This document shows positions 5,184 to 41,468 of a stretch of DNA of 64,000 nucleotides, in pieces (position 1 is the stretch's first letter; every line of letters begins with the position of its first letter). The translations under genes and the position numbers were made by a program. The stretch spans positions 31,967-95,966 of the IMG/VR virus record IMGVR_UViG_3300021389_000008. One strand, given 5' to 3'. The notes under the pieces were generated by a model. It had not been told where the DNA came from and did no database searches. It saw only the letters and a program-made list of their open reading frames with translations. Origin of the DNA: a virus.

Positions 5184-6008
5184 CTATTGCATTCTAATTT
5201 GGAACGTTTTGAATGTAGTATTCGTATTAGCAGGTGTTACCAGCAATCTCATGTTGTTACTATTCATATCACTAGAAAGTGTGAATAGAGATGAACCTGA
5301 GTATGCATCACCATACTGAACGAAGTATACATTCGTACCGTCATTGATTAAAAGAACCTCAGCAGCGTGAGTACCACCAGTAGCATGTGTTGCAACAATT
5401 ACATGTTTAATTGCAATTACTGCTTTTGCGTTAGAAGTCAATACTTGGTCAGCAGTCGTTGCTGTTAAAGCAACTGTCGTGAAGAAACCTTGTACAAGGT
5501 TTGATATTGAAGTCTGTGCAACTACTTGTAATACATCTCCCGCCACAGCGTTCGCCTGTAATGTGATAACTGAAGTACTAGTTGTAGCATAGTCATCACC
5601 ACTCACTAATTTAACACCATTCAGATAGACTTGTTCTAGTCCAACAGTGTAAGCAAGTGTTACACCATTATCATCTGAACCTGAAATTACGGTTGTGTTA
5701 CCAGTTATATCATATTTGAAAGTTACAACACCAGTGCTTGGTGCATTTACGAAACCTAAAGTTCCACTTCCATTTGTTGATAATAACTGACCACTTGTAC
5801 CGTCTGCAGTTGGGAATGTTAAAGCATCATTGATAGTAAGAGAAGTCGGGTTAGACCCAACTTCTACAACAGCAGCAGAACCATCATTCTTCTCAGTGTA
5901 AAACCTACCGTGGTAAGTGTTTACCGCTAATTCACCAAGTGCAAGGTCACTTACGCCTGGTAATGCGTTCTGAGTAGAACTTCTTTTAAATTGGATTACT
6001 GTTGCCAT
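5184..6008 (-). CDS. Tail fiber protein with shared C-terminal domain (274 aa)
   Basis: Residues 1-60 (MATVIQFKRSSTQNALP, then DLALGELAVNTYHGRFY) form the N-terminal module common to phage fibers that attach to baseplates. It is shared with the 544-aa fiber just upstream. Residues 90-170 hold a VTFKYDITGNTTVISGSDDN and VGLEQVYLNGVKL segment typical of phage fiber linkers. The C-terminal ~95 residues are the third, most diverged copy of the AEVLLINDGTNVYFVQYGD / MRLLVTPAN domain. AGGAGAAG precedes the start. A virion role is inferred. Confidence 0.75.
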   Translation of the reverse strand: MATVIQFKRSSTQNALPGVSDLALGELAVNTYHGRFYTEKNDGSAAVVEVGSNPTSLTINDALTFPTADGTSGQLLSTNGSGTLGFVNAPSTGVVTFKYDITGNTTVISGSDDNGVTLAYTVGLEQVYLNGVKLVSGDDYATTSTSVITLQANAVAGDVLQVVAQTSISNLVQGFFTTVALTATTADQVLTSNAKAVIAIKHVIVATHATGGTHAAEVLLINDGTNVYFVQYGDAYSGSSLFTLSSDMNSNNMRLLVTPANTNTTFKTFQIRMQ

Positions 6009-6046
6009 TTTCTTCTCCTATTGAATCGGTTAATTTGGATTATTAA

Positions 6047-7681
6047 TTAAAATGTTCCGCCGTCAATAGCAGTAACTGTTACCGCACCACTTGATACTGT
6101 AAAGTTACTTGAAGCAAAAGAAGCAATACCTTTTACTGAAGCTGTTGCATCTTTAATAGATACAGCACCACTTGAAACATCAAAGATAGCAGAAGCAAAG
6201 CTTGCGATACCTTTATTAGATGTTGTAGCATCTTCAGCAGCGATTGTTATTGCACCGTCAGCATTAGTTACATCGATACCTTCACCAGCAGTTAGAGTTG
6301 CAAGTTCCATGTCTCCATTAGAACCATTACCAACCAATAACTCACCAGCAGCAGGAGCCGCACCGTCTACAGAAGTGATTGAACCACTTAATGCAAGACC
6401 AGCACCTGAAAGGTTACCACCTGTTGAAAGACTACCAACTGTTAATGCACCAAATTCTGCATCACCAACACTTCCTGAGAAGACTGAAGATGTATCTGTT
6501 GCATCTTGGATGAACTTAAACTTACCGTCTGAATCGTCCATACCAAAGAAACCAATCTTAGCAGCTGAACCATTGTGCCAGTTAAATTTAATACCTCTGT
6601 CTAAGTTATCGTCTGAAGTTCCTTCACCGATTTCAAATACAGGGTCATCAATTTCTACTGTTGTAGAGTTAACTGTTGTTGTAGTACCGTTTACTGTCAA
6701 GTTGCCTGAAACTGTTAGGTTACCTGAAGCAGCGATGTTTGTAGATGTGATGTCATCCGATGTAAGTGTTCCATCAACGTCTACGTTGTTGAAAGTTACG
6801 TTAGATGTTGTTGCAACTGCCTGACCAATAGCGAAAGTCGCTGCTTGACCTGAAACAGAAGTTGTTACACCAGTTCCACCAGTAAATGTGATTGACTGAG
6901 AGTCTAAGTCGACTGAACCACTTCCACTGTCACCAGCAAGGTCTAAGTCCTGTGCTGTGATGTTTGAATCTACATATGCTTTAACAGATTGCTGAGAAGG
7001 AACTTTGACTGCTGAATCAGATGACATGTCATCTTCGTCAACTAAGAAGTTAATCTTATCTACTGTTACATTAGCGTTTAGAATCTTAGCAGTTGTAACT
7101 TTATCGTTTCCGATTGTTACTGCACCACTAGATGCCATAGTTGCATCACCACTCATTGATACGTTATCGAATGAATTACTTCCATCATGAACAAGCATTT
7201 GTCCGCCTGTTGGAGATGAAATATCTGAATCCGTTGCACCTGCTAGTGTTGATGTTGTTGATAAGAATGATAAGTTTCCACTACCATCTGTACCAATTAC
7301 TTGGTTTGCAGAACCGTCTGCTGTAGGTAGAGTAAAGGTTGTCGAAGCACCCAATGTGTCAGCAGCTTTTAATGCAACGAAGTTCGTTCCATTATCACTG
7401 TCTTCCATTAACTGAACACTTGCACCAGCAGTTGCACCATTACCAACTTTAAAGTTAGCAGGCGTTGCAGCTGAACCACCTAGTATATCCGTATAATATT
7501 TACCACCAATTGCTTGAATAAGTGGAGTAGAGTTATCTGAGTCTACTGATTCGATATATAGTTTCGCACCAGCACCTGAATTCGCTCTATCTTGTACATA
7601 TGCCAACTCACCTACTGATAAATCACTCGTAGATGGAGCCGCAACACCTGTACTTCTTTTAATTTGAATTACTGTTGCCAT
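6047..7681 (-). CDS. Tail fiber protein (544 aa)
   Basis: It has the MATVIQIKRSTG / DLSVGELAYVQ N-terminal attachment module, then low-complexity beta-rich repeats (LKAADTLGASTTFTLPTADG, then GQAVATTSNVTFNNVDVDG), then the GNLTVNGTTTTVN module also seen in the 852-aa fiber. Near the C-terminus two related units run IASFASAIFDVSSGAVSI and IASFASSNFTVSSGAV. It ends AIDGGTF, the same C-terminal tag as the 76-aa and 84-aa proteins. CAGGAGAA precedes the ATG. It is a long fiber by architecture; the target is unknown. Confidence 0.78.
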   Translation of the reverse strand: MATVIQIKRSTGVAAPSTSDLSVGELAYVQDRANSGAGAKLYIESVDSDNSTPLIQAIGGKYYTDILGGSAATPANFKVGNGATAGASVQLMEDSDNGTNFVALKAADTLGASTTFTLPTADGSANQVIGTDGSGNLSFLSTTSTLAGATDSDISSPTGGQMLVHDGSNSFDNVSMSGDATMASSGAVTIGNDKVTTAKILNANVTVDKINFLVDEDDMSSDSAVKVPSQQSVKAYVDSNITAQDLDLAGDSGSGSVDLDSQSITFTGGTGVTTSVSGQAATFAIGQAVATTSNVTFNNVDVDGTLTSDDITSTNIAASGNLTVSGNLTVNGTTTTVNSTTVEIDDPVFEIGEGTSDDNLDRGIKFNWHNGSAAKIGFFGMDDSDGKFKFIQDATDTSSVFSGSVGDAEFGALTVGSLSTGGNLSGAGLALSGSITSVDGAAPAAGELLVGNGSNGDMELATLTAGEGIDVTNADGAITIAAEDATTSNKGIASFASAIFDVSSGAVSIKDATASVKGIASFASSNFTVSSGAVTVTAIDGGTF

Positions 7682-39197: not shown

Positions 39198-39425
39198 TCA
39201 AACAGAACTTTGTGGTACCTCGTCTTTGGACGTTGTGGTCTCCTCAATTGTTTCATCTTTCTTCTCTACTTTCTTCTCTACTTTCTTTTTAGTAAAAATT
39301 GCGTCCCAACCAGCAGCATAAGCATCGTATGATTTCTTATCCTTCCCTCTAGTGTGGGAACCTTTACCACCTTCCCATGAACCATTATGAAGGTTGTAAG
39401 TTGTTTCTCCTTTCGGCCCTACCAT
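39198..39425 (-). CDS. Small basic/acidic protein after bS21 (75 aa)
   Basis: It reads MVGPKGETTYNLHNGSWEGG, then KGSHTRGKDKKSYDAYAAGW, with KKVEKKVEKKDETIEETT at the end. The first half is Gly/Lys-rich and has one DAYAAGWDAIF block. The tail is a charged repeat. It is two bases from the bS21 stop and has a strong GGGAG site, so it should be co-expressed with bS21. A ribosome or RNA link is possible only by position. Confidence 0.6.
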   Translation of the reverse strand: MVGPKGETTYNLHNGSWEGGKGSHTRGKDKKSYDAYAAGWDAIFTKKKVEKKVEKKDETIEETTTSKDEVPQSSV

Positions 39426-39427
39426 AT

Positions 39428-39664
39428 CTATCTCCCTAATCGAAAACCTTTTTGAGCAGCCCTCTTTGCGTTGATTTTTTTCCTACGCTTGATTGCCTGT
39501 TTTTGCTCATTCTTAATAGAACTAGGTTTTTCAAAGTGTTGCCTGTCTCTAACCTCTTGAACGATACCAGCACGTTCGCATGATTTCTTCCAACGTCTCA
39601 ACATCTTATCAAATGGTTCTTCGTTAGACTTTCGTTTATCTGTTCTTGGTGTTACACTTGGCAT
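39428..39664 (-). CDS. rpsU: Ribosomal protein bS21 (phage-encoded)
   Basis: EPFDKMLRRWKKSCERAGIV, then QEVRDRQHFEKPS, then a Lys/Arg-rich tail is plain bS21. At 78 aa it is slightly longer than E. coli S21 (71), with a six-residue DKRKSN insertion before EPFD and a longer tail. bS21 sits near the anti-Shine-Dalgarno on the 30S subunit, and viral copies are known in marine phages, including pelagiphages. The core is of the gamma/beta-proteobacterial type, not the alphaproteobacterial ALK-LKKKLQREG type. A structured leader and a late-like promoter precede it, so late expression is likely. Confidence 0.92.
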   Translation of the reverse strand: MPSVTPRTDKRKSNEEPFDKMLRRWKKSCERAGIVQEVRDRQHFEKPSSIKNEQKQAIKRRKKINAKRAAQKGFRLGR

Positions 39665-39689
39665 AAAATTTCCGTTCGTTATTTAAAAA

Positions 39690-39843
39690 GATGTACAGTC
39701 GCCCCAATCAACTTTACAGCATCCCGCTCTGTACCGATAGTCCCGCTTTGACCCCGACTACCTTTCCCTTACTGAGTACCCCCATTCCTACGGTCTCAGT
39801 TAGTCTACACTTCGCATGGACACATGATATAGATGTGTAGACT
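39690..39843 (-). ncRNA. Structured RNA leader upstream of bS21
   Basis: Four consecutive stems are seen on the minus strand: AGTCTACAC with GTGTAGACT (39835-39843 with 39802-39810); CTGAG with CTCAG (39795-39799 with 39772-39776); GGTAGTC with GACTATC (39756-39762 with 39736-39742); GTACAG with CTGTAC (39729-39734 with 39693-39698). The first stem has an alternative inner pairing (ACACAT with ATGTGT). The tract is more GC-rich than its surroundings and has no open frame. It could be a cis-regulator of bS21, perhaps feeling bS21 itself, or a separate small RNA. It matches no class I know. Confidence 0.6.
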
Positions 39844-39845
39844 CC

Positions 39846-39853
39846 CATTTATA
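39846..39853 (-). promoter_or_regulatory. Late-like promoter before the bS21 leader
   Basis: TATAAATG on the minus strand differs from the T4 late octamer at the last base only. Transcription would start at about 39840, at the base of the first leader stem. Confidence 0.5.
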
Positions 39854-39870
39854 AGTAGTTAACTAACTAA

Positions 39871-40767
39871 TTAATCGTTAGCCAACTTCTTAAAGTAATC
39901 CATCGCATCATTCTCTTCTGAACTACTAGAAGACATTTCCGCTGATGAGATTACAGGTTCATCTGCAACCGTCTCTTTGTTAACGTTAGACCATGGCACT
40001 TCGTCCATATCTTCCGCAACTGACTCTGCAGTTGAATTACTCACTGAACCAGTTAGACCGAGAACTCTATCGAGTTTCTCTTTGAGTTCATCGTAAGACT
40101 TGAACTCTTCTGGCGCAATTATGCCTGATAATGAATGAGCAGATGAATATATAGTATTCAACTGTGCTTCATCTTCGAACAAAGCGGCAGGTGTATCAAA
40201 CTCTGATTTGTCATAGTTCCAGTAACCGTCTACTTTTCTAATCTTAATCTTAAAGTTCGCACCTTCTCTTAGGTCGAAAGGATTAATTGCTTGTTCGTCT
40301 TCAAATGCTGGTGAGATAGCCTCTTTGAGTTGTTCAAAGATTTTCTTACCATATCTGTATTTGTATACTTTACCTTCGTTAGATGGATTTTTTGGGTCTG
40401 AAACAACATAAACATTTGACACATAGTGTAAACGTCTCTTCTGCTTTCTAGCAGTTTCTTTGTTTGCTTCAATCCCAGTATTCCATAACTGAGTATTGTA
40501 TTCTGACACAGGGTCTTGTTTATTAAGTGTAGTCAAAGACTTCTCAATATACCAACCGCCTGGGCCTTGGAAACCGTGGTCAAAGTATGATACCCATGGC
40601 ATCTCTTCTCCCTCGGGTGTGGGTAGAAAACGAACTACCGCAAAACCGTTACCTGTTTTATCAAGTTCGGGTTTCCACATCGTGTCGTCTGTGTAGGATT
40701 TTTTTGCACCTTCTGTAGGTGAAGCAGTTTCCATAGCTGCTCTTAGTTTATCTAATGATGCTGACAT
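39871..40767 (-). CDS. gp32: Single-stranded DNA-binding protein gp32
   Basis: NTGIEANKETARKQKRRLHY, then VSNVYVVSDPKNPSNEGKVY, then KYRYGKKIFEQLK aligns well with T4 gp32 (the DP..P-NEGKV-KYR-GKKI block). It ends with the acidic Ser-rich tail that contacts partner proteins (AEMSSSSSEENDAMDYFKKL). Length 298 aa, T4 301. There is no cysteine at all: the T4 zinc ligands in CPVC are replaced by DPVS. A strong sigma70-type promoter and four AATACAATG repeats precede it. GGAG sits among those repeats. Confidence 0.95.
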   Translation of the reverse strand: MSASLDKLRAAMETASPTEGAKKSYTDDTMWKPELDKTGNGFAVVRFLPTPEGEEMPWVSYFDHGFQGPGGWYIEKSLTTLNKQDPVSEYNTQLWNTGIEANKETARKQKRRLHYVSNVYVVSDPKNPSNEGKVYKYRYGKKIFEQLKEAISPAFEDEQAINPFDLREGANFKIKIRKVDGYWNYDKSEFDTPAALFEDEAQLNTIYSSAHSLSGIIAPEEFKSYDELKEKLDRVLGLTGSVSNSTAESVAEDMDEVPWSNVNKETVADEPVISSAEMSSSSSEENDAMDYFKKLAND

Positions 40768-40877: not shown

Positions 40878-41468
40878 TTATGAACATACATCCAAAAGAA
40901 TCTTTTTAAATTTCTTATGGTCTACACTTATAAACGTCTTGTACTTTCGTATCTTAGTATGGACATCGGGGTACACTACCTTCTCAGAGATTAGTCTCTC
41001 CCAATCTGTAGTGAACCCGATTATCTCATCCATGATACAAAGAGTTTCGAGTGAGACATTCTTTGCTAGATAGTCTCGTAATAACCAAGGATGCTGACCG
41101 TTCTTTACTTCTAGAACTTTTTGTATTGTTCTTTTACGTAACACATCTGACACTTCTGATTGAAACATATACGACAACTTCTGTTGACGTTTTCTCCAAT
41201 CGGCGTAGACACGTTCTGCTTCTTCGTTTAACAAGTCTCCCGCCCAACTATCTTTCTGAGATAGATTGGCGATATAGAAGTCTTGTAGGTTATCTTTATA
41301 AATTTTGTGAAGTTTTCCAAAGTGAAACTTATCTTTCCGCTTTAGGAAAGAGTTGATATCACTTCGTACTTTTCCGTTGTATTTAATGAAGTCATAATCC
41401 TTAGAATTGAAGTGTAACTTAATTCCAAGGTACAACGTATATGCATCATATCCATCCCTAGATGTCAT
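40878..41468 (-). CDS. gp59: Replicative helicase loader gp59
   Basis: YDAYTLYLGIKLHFNSKDYD, then FIKYNGKVRSD, then KRKDKFHFGKLHKIY, AGDLLNEEAERVYADWRKRQ and KLSYMFQSEVSDVL match T4 gp59 along its whole length (196 aa vs 217). It loads gp41 helicase onto gp32-coated DNA. The gene neighbours gp32 and gp33, just as in T4. It overlaps the next gene by one base. Confidence 0.92.
   Translation of the reverse strand: MTSRDGYDAYTLYLGIKLHFNSKDYDFIKYNGKVRSDINSFLKRKDKFHFGKLHKIYKDNLQDFYIANLSQKDSWAGDLLNEEAERVYADWRKRQQKLSYMFQSEVSDVLRKRTIQKVLEVKNGQHPWLLRDYLAKNVSLETLCIMDEIIGFTTDWERLISEKVVYPDVHTKIRKYKTFISVDHKKFKKILLDVCS

Follow-up and report, generated by a model that had tools for sequence, protein, structure and literature searches.

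The 64,000-nucleotide stretch of DNA analyzed here, called the window, is part of a 95,966-base IMG/VR virus record whose source is an uncultivated, T4-like marine bacteriophage. On its minus strand, a gp59-like gene is followed by the gene for a gp32-like single-stranded DNA-binding protein, a 206-base gap (39665-39870), and the gene for ribosomal protein bS21. The gap holds the single match of covariance model R1 in the window, which is also its single match in the whole record.

40878-41468, minus strand: gp59-like gene, upstream of gp32
39871-40767, minus strand: gene for the gp32-like single-stranded DNA-binding protein (Pfam PF08804), always immediately 5′ of the RNA
39687-39850, minus strand: structured RNA element (model R1, 145 bits)
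39428-39664, minus strand: bS21 gene (Pfam PF01165), the 3′ neighbor of the RNA in the window lineage

Among isolates, Pelagibacter phage Mosig has the closest gp32 DNA (73.2% across 35% of the 1400 bases queried), which makes a SAR11-type or other marine bacterium a plausible host.

The minimum-energy fold of the minus-strand gap consists of four consecutive stems. An earlier note on this DNA had described four stems in the 206-base gap, and they are confirmed both by this fold and by covariation among relatives.

39802-39843, minus strand: stem P1, pairing 39843-39835 with 39810-39802, with a AUGUGUCC motif at its apex
39771-39800, minus strand: stem P2, pairing 39800-39792 with 39780-39771, with A39777 bulged and a G-rich loop
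39763-39770, minus strand: conserved unpaired purine linker, AAGGGAAA
39736-39762, minus strand: stem P3, pairing 39762-39756 with 39742-39736, with a conserved GCGG in the loop (39746-39743)
39693-39734, minus strand: stem P4, pairing 39734-39729 with 39698-39693 and 39727-39726 with 39702-39701, with GGG facing GGG inside

Folding energy is ruled out as proof of this structure, as the gap differs little from its shuffles (z-scores of -1.12 and -1.26; 26 of 200 shuffles at least as stable). The case is carried instead by comparison with relatives, which were fetched by gp32 and bS21 and show gp32 followed by bS21 in 120 loci, with 73 distinct gaps. In the window's own clade (clade A), these RNAs have a median pairwise identity of 0.66 and a minimum of 0.52. 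A first alignment (A1), made with MAFFT and no use of structure, retains 52 of the 73 distinct RNAs after removal of near-identical ones and leaves out L018, L048, and L049, which are odd in stem 1, length, or cut point; a second (A2) contains 68 of 76 cores. In A1, 26 of the 32 pairs change on both sides: all eight modeled pairs of P1, six of nine in P2 (the remaining three being invariant), six of seven in P3, and six of eight in P4. The 322 two-sided cells compare with 98.6 in shuffles, none of 500 shuffles matched any of five measures, and shifting the partners by 1-3 columns lowers the covariation score from 0.537 in register to at most 0.133.

The same pairs stand out when shared ancestry is taken into account. 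In an R-scape-like, tree-aware test, which uses an APC-corrected G statistic and a null of 40 alignments with substitutions re-placed along a FastTree tree and an exponential tail fit, eight column pairs of the structure-blind alignment exceed all 541,200 null values. All eight are proposed pairs, seven of them at E<0.05. An alignment to the covariance model (79 matches, 73 distinct) likewise places all 16 above-null pairs within the proposed structure and none outside it, although this alignment is fitted to the model and hence biased toward that structure. Covarying pairs in homologous gaps, the test on which the claim of a structured RNA had been staked beforehand, are thus present in both structure-blind and tree-aware analyses. 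These comparisons strongly support the view that the clade-A gap holds a conserved secondary structure under selection at the RNA level.

The non-Watson-Crick cells within the helices also indicate a strand. G-U cells outnumber A-C cells in every count (85:30, 103:6, and 51:8), which assigns the function to RNA read in the direction of gp32 and bS21. This asymmetry bears on the idea that the selected object is the DNA itself, either a replication origin or a single-strand DNA structure. The element does adjoin the gp59-gp32 replication genes, but tolerance of G-U and avoidance of A-C on one strand, together with a P3 pair for which G-U is the commonest state (39 of 73), make a DNA element extremely improbable.

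Much of the conservation lies outside the helices. In the clade-A RNAs, a single base makes up at least 95% of each of 37 unpaired columns, and that base is G in 23 of them. Together, the invariant G tracts in the loops of P2 and P3, in the linker, and on either side of P4 may form a quadruplex or other tertiary core. Stem 1 is less constant. In two clade-A RNAs (L018, 4877-5030, and L049, 4904-5052), it is missing or greatly shortened, with P2-P4 intact, which suggests that stem 1 may be dispensable. The alternative pairing of ACACAT with ATGTGT noticed earlier in stem 1 is present in the window, but it occurs in only four of 129 distinct related loci, all from the window lineage; it is therefore not a conserved feature, and its use as a switch is ruled out.

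A related RNA is found at the same place in a sister clade (clade B), which comprises loci whose gp32 is ~58-63% identical to that of the window, along with their relatives. The RNAs of the two clades have a common 3′ core comprising an invariant GGNAA linker, P3 with GCGG, and P4 with CGGG opposite GGG (invariant or nearly so in both), followed by CA. Model R1 scores the clade-B RNAs weakly (14-19 bits). A second covariance model (R2), constructed from 17 clade-B RNAs, reaches the most divergent members of that clade at 25.6-58 bits, among them forms that apparently lack the 5′ stems (L292, L293, L295, and L296). Support for the putative homology of the RNAs between clades comes from synteny, the common 3′ core, and the weak cross-model scores. 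The clade-B alignment (A3) includes 17 of 24 RNAs, with the divergent L052, L053, L055, L291, L292, L294, and L295 left out. Two-sided changes affect 22 of the 40 pairs in it, and the 90 two-sided cells compare with 31.9 in shuffles, none of 500 of which is as high; no pair in these 17 sequences is individually significant under the tree-aware null.

The family is recurrent in uncultivated marine T4-like phages. A single exact pattern for stem 2 and the linker, applied independently of flanking genes, matched at least 119 IMG/VR stretches, and gp32 lies just upstream of the RNA in 112 of 113 pattern loci, the exception (L241) starting at a contig edge. R1 matches nine clade-A records and R2 three clade-B records, once each; neither matches the genomes of HTVC008M, Mosig, Melnitz, S-BM3, or P-TIM68. 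HTVC008M, Mosig, and Melnitz encode bS21 elsewhere, without a detectable RNA, and bS21 therefore exists without the RNA. In blastn searches against 50,697 phage records, the window RNA matches nothing at E<=1, and the clade-B RNA has one weak unrelated match in two records of one coliphage. Among cellular genomes covering 84,980 species, the exact pattern has 31 matches, only one of which (L353) scores as the RNA, at 147 bits; the others reach at most 15.2 bits. L353 (JAAXIF010000105.1, 121,087 bases) is a contig binned in a Sphingobacteriales metagenome-assembled genome, carries gp59, gp32, the RNA, a methyltransferase gene, and bS21 in that order, and looks like a mis-binned phage contig.

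The position of the RNA next to bS21 had led to the proposal that it is a leader to which free bS21, or a state of the 30S subunit, binds to limit bS21 translation. Gene order was compared across the 129 distinct loci that extend 600 nt or more past the gp32 stop and in which the RNA was called by a regular expression (110 in clade A, 19 in clade B). In clade A, bS21 is the next gene in 85 of the 110 loci, with 10-179 nt (median 22) separating the last conserved pair from its ATG, an arrangement compatible with a leader. In the other 25, a methyltransferase-like gene, named from a motif, intervenes, so that bS21 is not directly downstream in all members, as it would be for an autoregulatory leader. 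L353 is a further case beyond these 25; its methyltransferase gene (5608-6495) stops one base short of the bS21 start, too close for a leader specific to bS21 to fit. Of the 85 clade-A loci with bS21 next, 6 also have a promoter-like sequence separating it from the RNA. The RNA does not extend to the bS21 start region, which no conserved pairing covers, masks, or overlaps.

Clade B departs further from a leader arrangement. There, bS21 lies ~1.7 kb upstream of the gp32 start wherever the flank reaches that far. A convergent frame 401-610 codons long ends 0-18 nt past the RNA in 12 of the 19 loci, and the RNA thus often has no gene after it on the same strand. Elsewhere in clade B, the 3′ neighbor is the gene for a GKGSKRR protein (three loci) or a CXXCH protein (three), and one locus (L291) has nothing close. 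In L292, L295, and L296, a 426-427-codon frame with a signal-like start and a CXXCH (haem-type) motif lies ~35 nt past the RNA. Across both clades, the genes 3′ of the RNA vary among bS21, the methyltransferase, the GKGSKRR protein, the CXXCH protein, and none. The RNA is always tied to gp32, not to bS21, and as a general account the leader proposal is not supported.

Among the 65 of 151 gp32-fetched loci with enough flank (RNA again called by regular expression), 34 have both the RNA and bS21, 31 have neither, and none has only one; all 34 adequately flanked RNA-bearing loci thus carry bS21, in keeping with a leader, and all 12 RNA-bearing records searched whole also encode it. One locus of a wider set (L214) seemingly carries only bS21, yet R1 finds its RNA at 120.6 bits, a miss of the regular expression. 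Co-occurrence is ruled out as proof of a partnership. The gp32 proteins of RNA-bearing loci group together in one split of the gp32 tree (support 0.988), after four regular-expression misses were relabeled as RNA-bearing, L028 and L033 by R1 scores and L040 and L043 by reading of the gap, and common descent therefore suffices to explain the linkage.

A precedent for binding of bS21 to a structured noncoding RNA exists in the OLE RNA particle, which includes bS21 and binds it at a duplex resembling the Shine-Dalgarno-anti-Shine-Dalgarno pairing (available text of PMC12054373), and this too speaks for a bS21-binding leader. The two RNAs are alike in being conserved, structured, and noncoding, and here a phage bS21 gene accompanies every adequately flanked RNA locus. 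OLE differs in that it is ~600 nt long, belongs to Bacillota, and has CCUCC in its bS21 site, according to the same portion of that paper. CCUCC is found in none of 73 clade-A and none of 17 clade-B RNAs, and an OLE-type bS21 site is therefore absent; Rfam scans detected no homology to OLE. On balance, a leader limiting bS21 translation is improbable.

The location of promoters distinguishes the two clades. The earlier note had also pointed to a late-like promoter at the foot of stem 1.

39853-39846, minus strand: late-promoter-like octamer TATAAATG, at the foot of stem 1 and peculiar to the window lineage

The string is indeed there, but a search for TATAAAT[A/G] from -60 to +70 of the gp32 stop finds an octamer in only 6 of 110 clade-A loci, three of which represent the window lineage and three of which have it at +33, inside stem 1. 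Late promoters of T4 place the octamer at -13 to -6. By that spacing, the window octamer would start the RNA near 39840, within stem 1, and remove three bases of its 5′ strand (39843-39835). Because of this predicted start and the rarity of the octamer in clade A, TATAAATG is doubtful as a promoter of the RNA and is best seen as a marginal or accidental match. In clade B, an octamer lies after gp32 and upstream of the RNA in 19 of 19 loci, every one of the 24 distinct RNAs has its own, and it makes a convincing candidate for the RNA's late promoter.

The lack, for the most part, of a visible promoter after gp32 means that the clade-A RNA could simply be a 3′ UTR. An element of the gp32 mRNA acting only in cis, through protection or processing of the 3′ end or through feedback by gp32 binding, is the main rival to a stand-alone late RNA. 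The invariable position just past the gp32 stop fits such an element, as does the presence at that spot, judged by eye in many RNA-less relatives (L299-L348), of a hairpin and T run resembling an intrinsic terminator. T4 offers a parallel, in that gp32 autoregulates on RNA and its mRNA, the most stable in T4, carries an RNase E site close to the stop codon (PMC3014915, available text). The octamer between gp32 and the RNA in all clade-B loci would, however, yield the RNA without gp32, and the invariant unpaired G segments exceed what a protective hairpin needs. We consider a gp32 3′-UTR element unlikely, if still worth serious attention.

That the RNA sits where relatives have a terminator, with ACAC and often U after P4, also raises the prospect of a transcription terminator or attenuator between gp32 and the genes beyond. 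The GC-rich hairpin and U run of an intrinsic terminator are not found, and a terminator scan of the window lists none at the RNA. P4 is a short, A-U-rich stem with a long loop, TTTT is missing from 36 of 110 loci in clade A and 15 of 19 in clade B, and neither P1-P3 nor the invariant loops would be needed for termination. This function is very improbable.

The favored explanation, held with moderate confidence, is a new structured RNA that would be made late, stand alone, and act in trans, rather than serve as a bS21 leader. In its favor, clade B has its own octamer and often no downstream gene; both features coincide, with no same-strand gene following, in 12 of 19 clade-B loci. Clade A lacks a clear promoter. 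The gap would encode a noncoding RNA of ~165 nt, read on the gp32/bS21 strand, whose four helices would hold the invariant, mostly G-rich unpaired segments in place. Synthesis would be late, probably from the RNA's own promoter in clade B and, in clade A, by processing of read-through transcripts from gp32. The RNA may then act in trans, probably as a protein-RNA particle.

Comparison with known RNAs supports the genuine novelty of this family of structured RNAs, carried by marine T4-like phages with gp32 and bS21. The comparison with Rfam called for in the earlier note matched no family: scans with release 15 gave none above the gathering threshold, the best score being 16.5 bits for L13-Bacteroidia on the other strand of L289, against a gathering threshold of 38. 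No description of such an RNA was found in the literature. S21 is a core protein of pelagimyophages, for which the available text of PMC7029224 reports no riboswitches; in the accessible part of a paper on phage bS21 (PMC9723584), the words leader, noncoding, intergenic, and promoter are absent. Ribosomal-protein leaders of Rfam resemble the RNA in lying upstream of a ribosomal-protein gene, as it does in the window lineage, but the RNA has no Rfam match and is not tied to bS21. The manA, wcaG, and PhotoRC-II motifs are likewise structured RNAs of T4-like marine phages; they occur in cyanophages and marine metagenomes and are linked to metabolic or photosynthesis genes (PMC2864571, in the portion available), whereas the RNA described here has neither a fixed downstream gene nor an Rfam match. 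The autoregulatory pseudoknot of T4 shares the linkage to gene 32, but it is small, lies 5′ of the gene, and acts on its translation (PMC3014915, same portion); the present RNA is 3′ of gp32 and far larger. Melnitz has a two-piece tmRNA, a structured RNA near gp33-gp59-gp32 in a related phage (PMC9004378, available part). ARAGORN finds no tmRNA gene in the window, and neither R1 nor R2 matches the Melnitz genome.

By analogy with OLE, the RNA and phage bS21 might constitute a late ribonucleoprotein or ribosome device, in which bS21, free or on the 30S subunit, would bind the G-rich core and bias host ribosomes toward late phage mRNAs. The idea is speculative and rather improbable; if true, the RNA-bS21 pair would represent a phage equivalent of the OLE-bS21 particle.

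Small basic proteins with a GGKGS or GKGSKRR start form a further feature of these loci, encoded near bS21 or, in clade B, straight after the RNA. The window ORF at 39198-39425 (minus strand), near bS21 and without a Pfam or PHROG match, shares this N-terminus, as judged by eye, with frames in L353 (6765-7061, plus strand) and L052 (from ~3403, plus strand).
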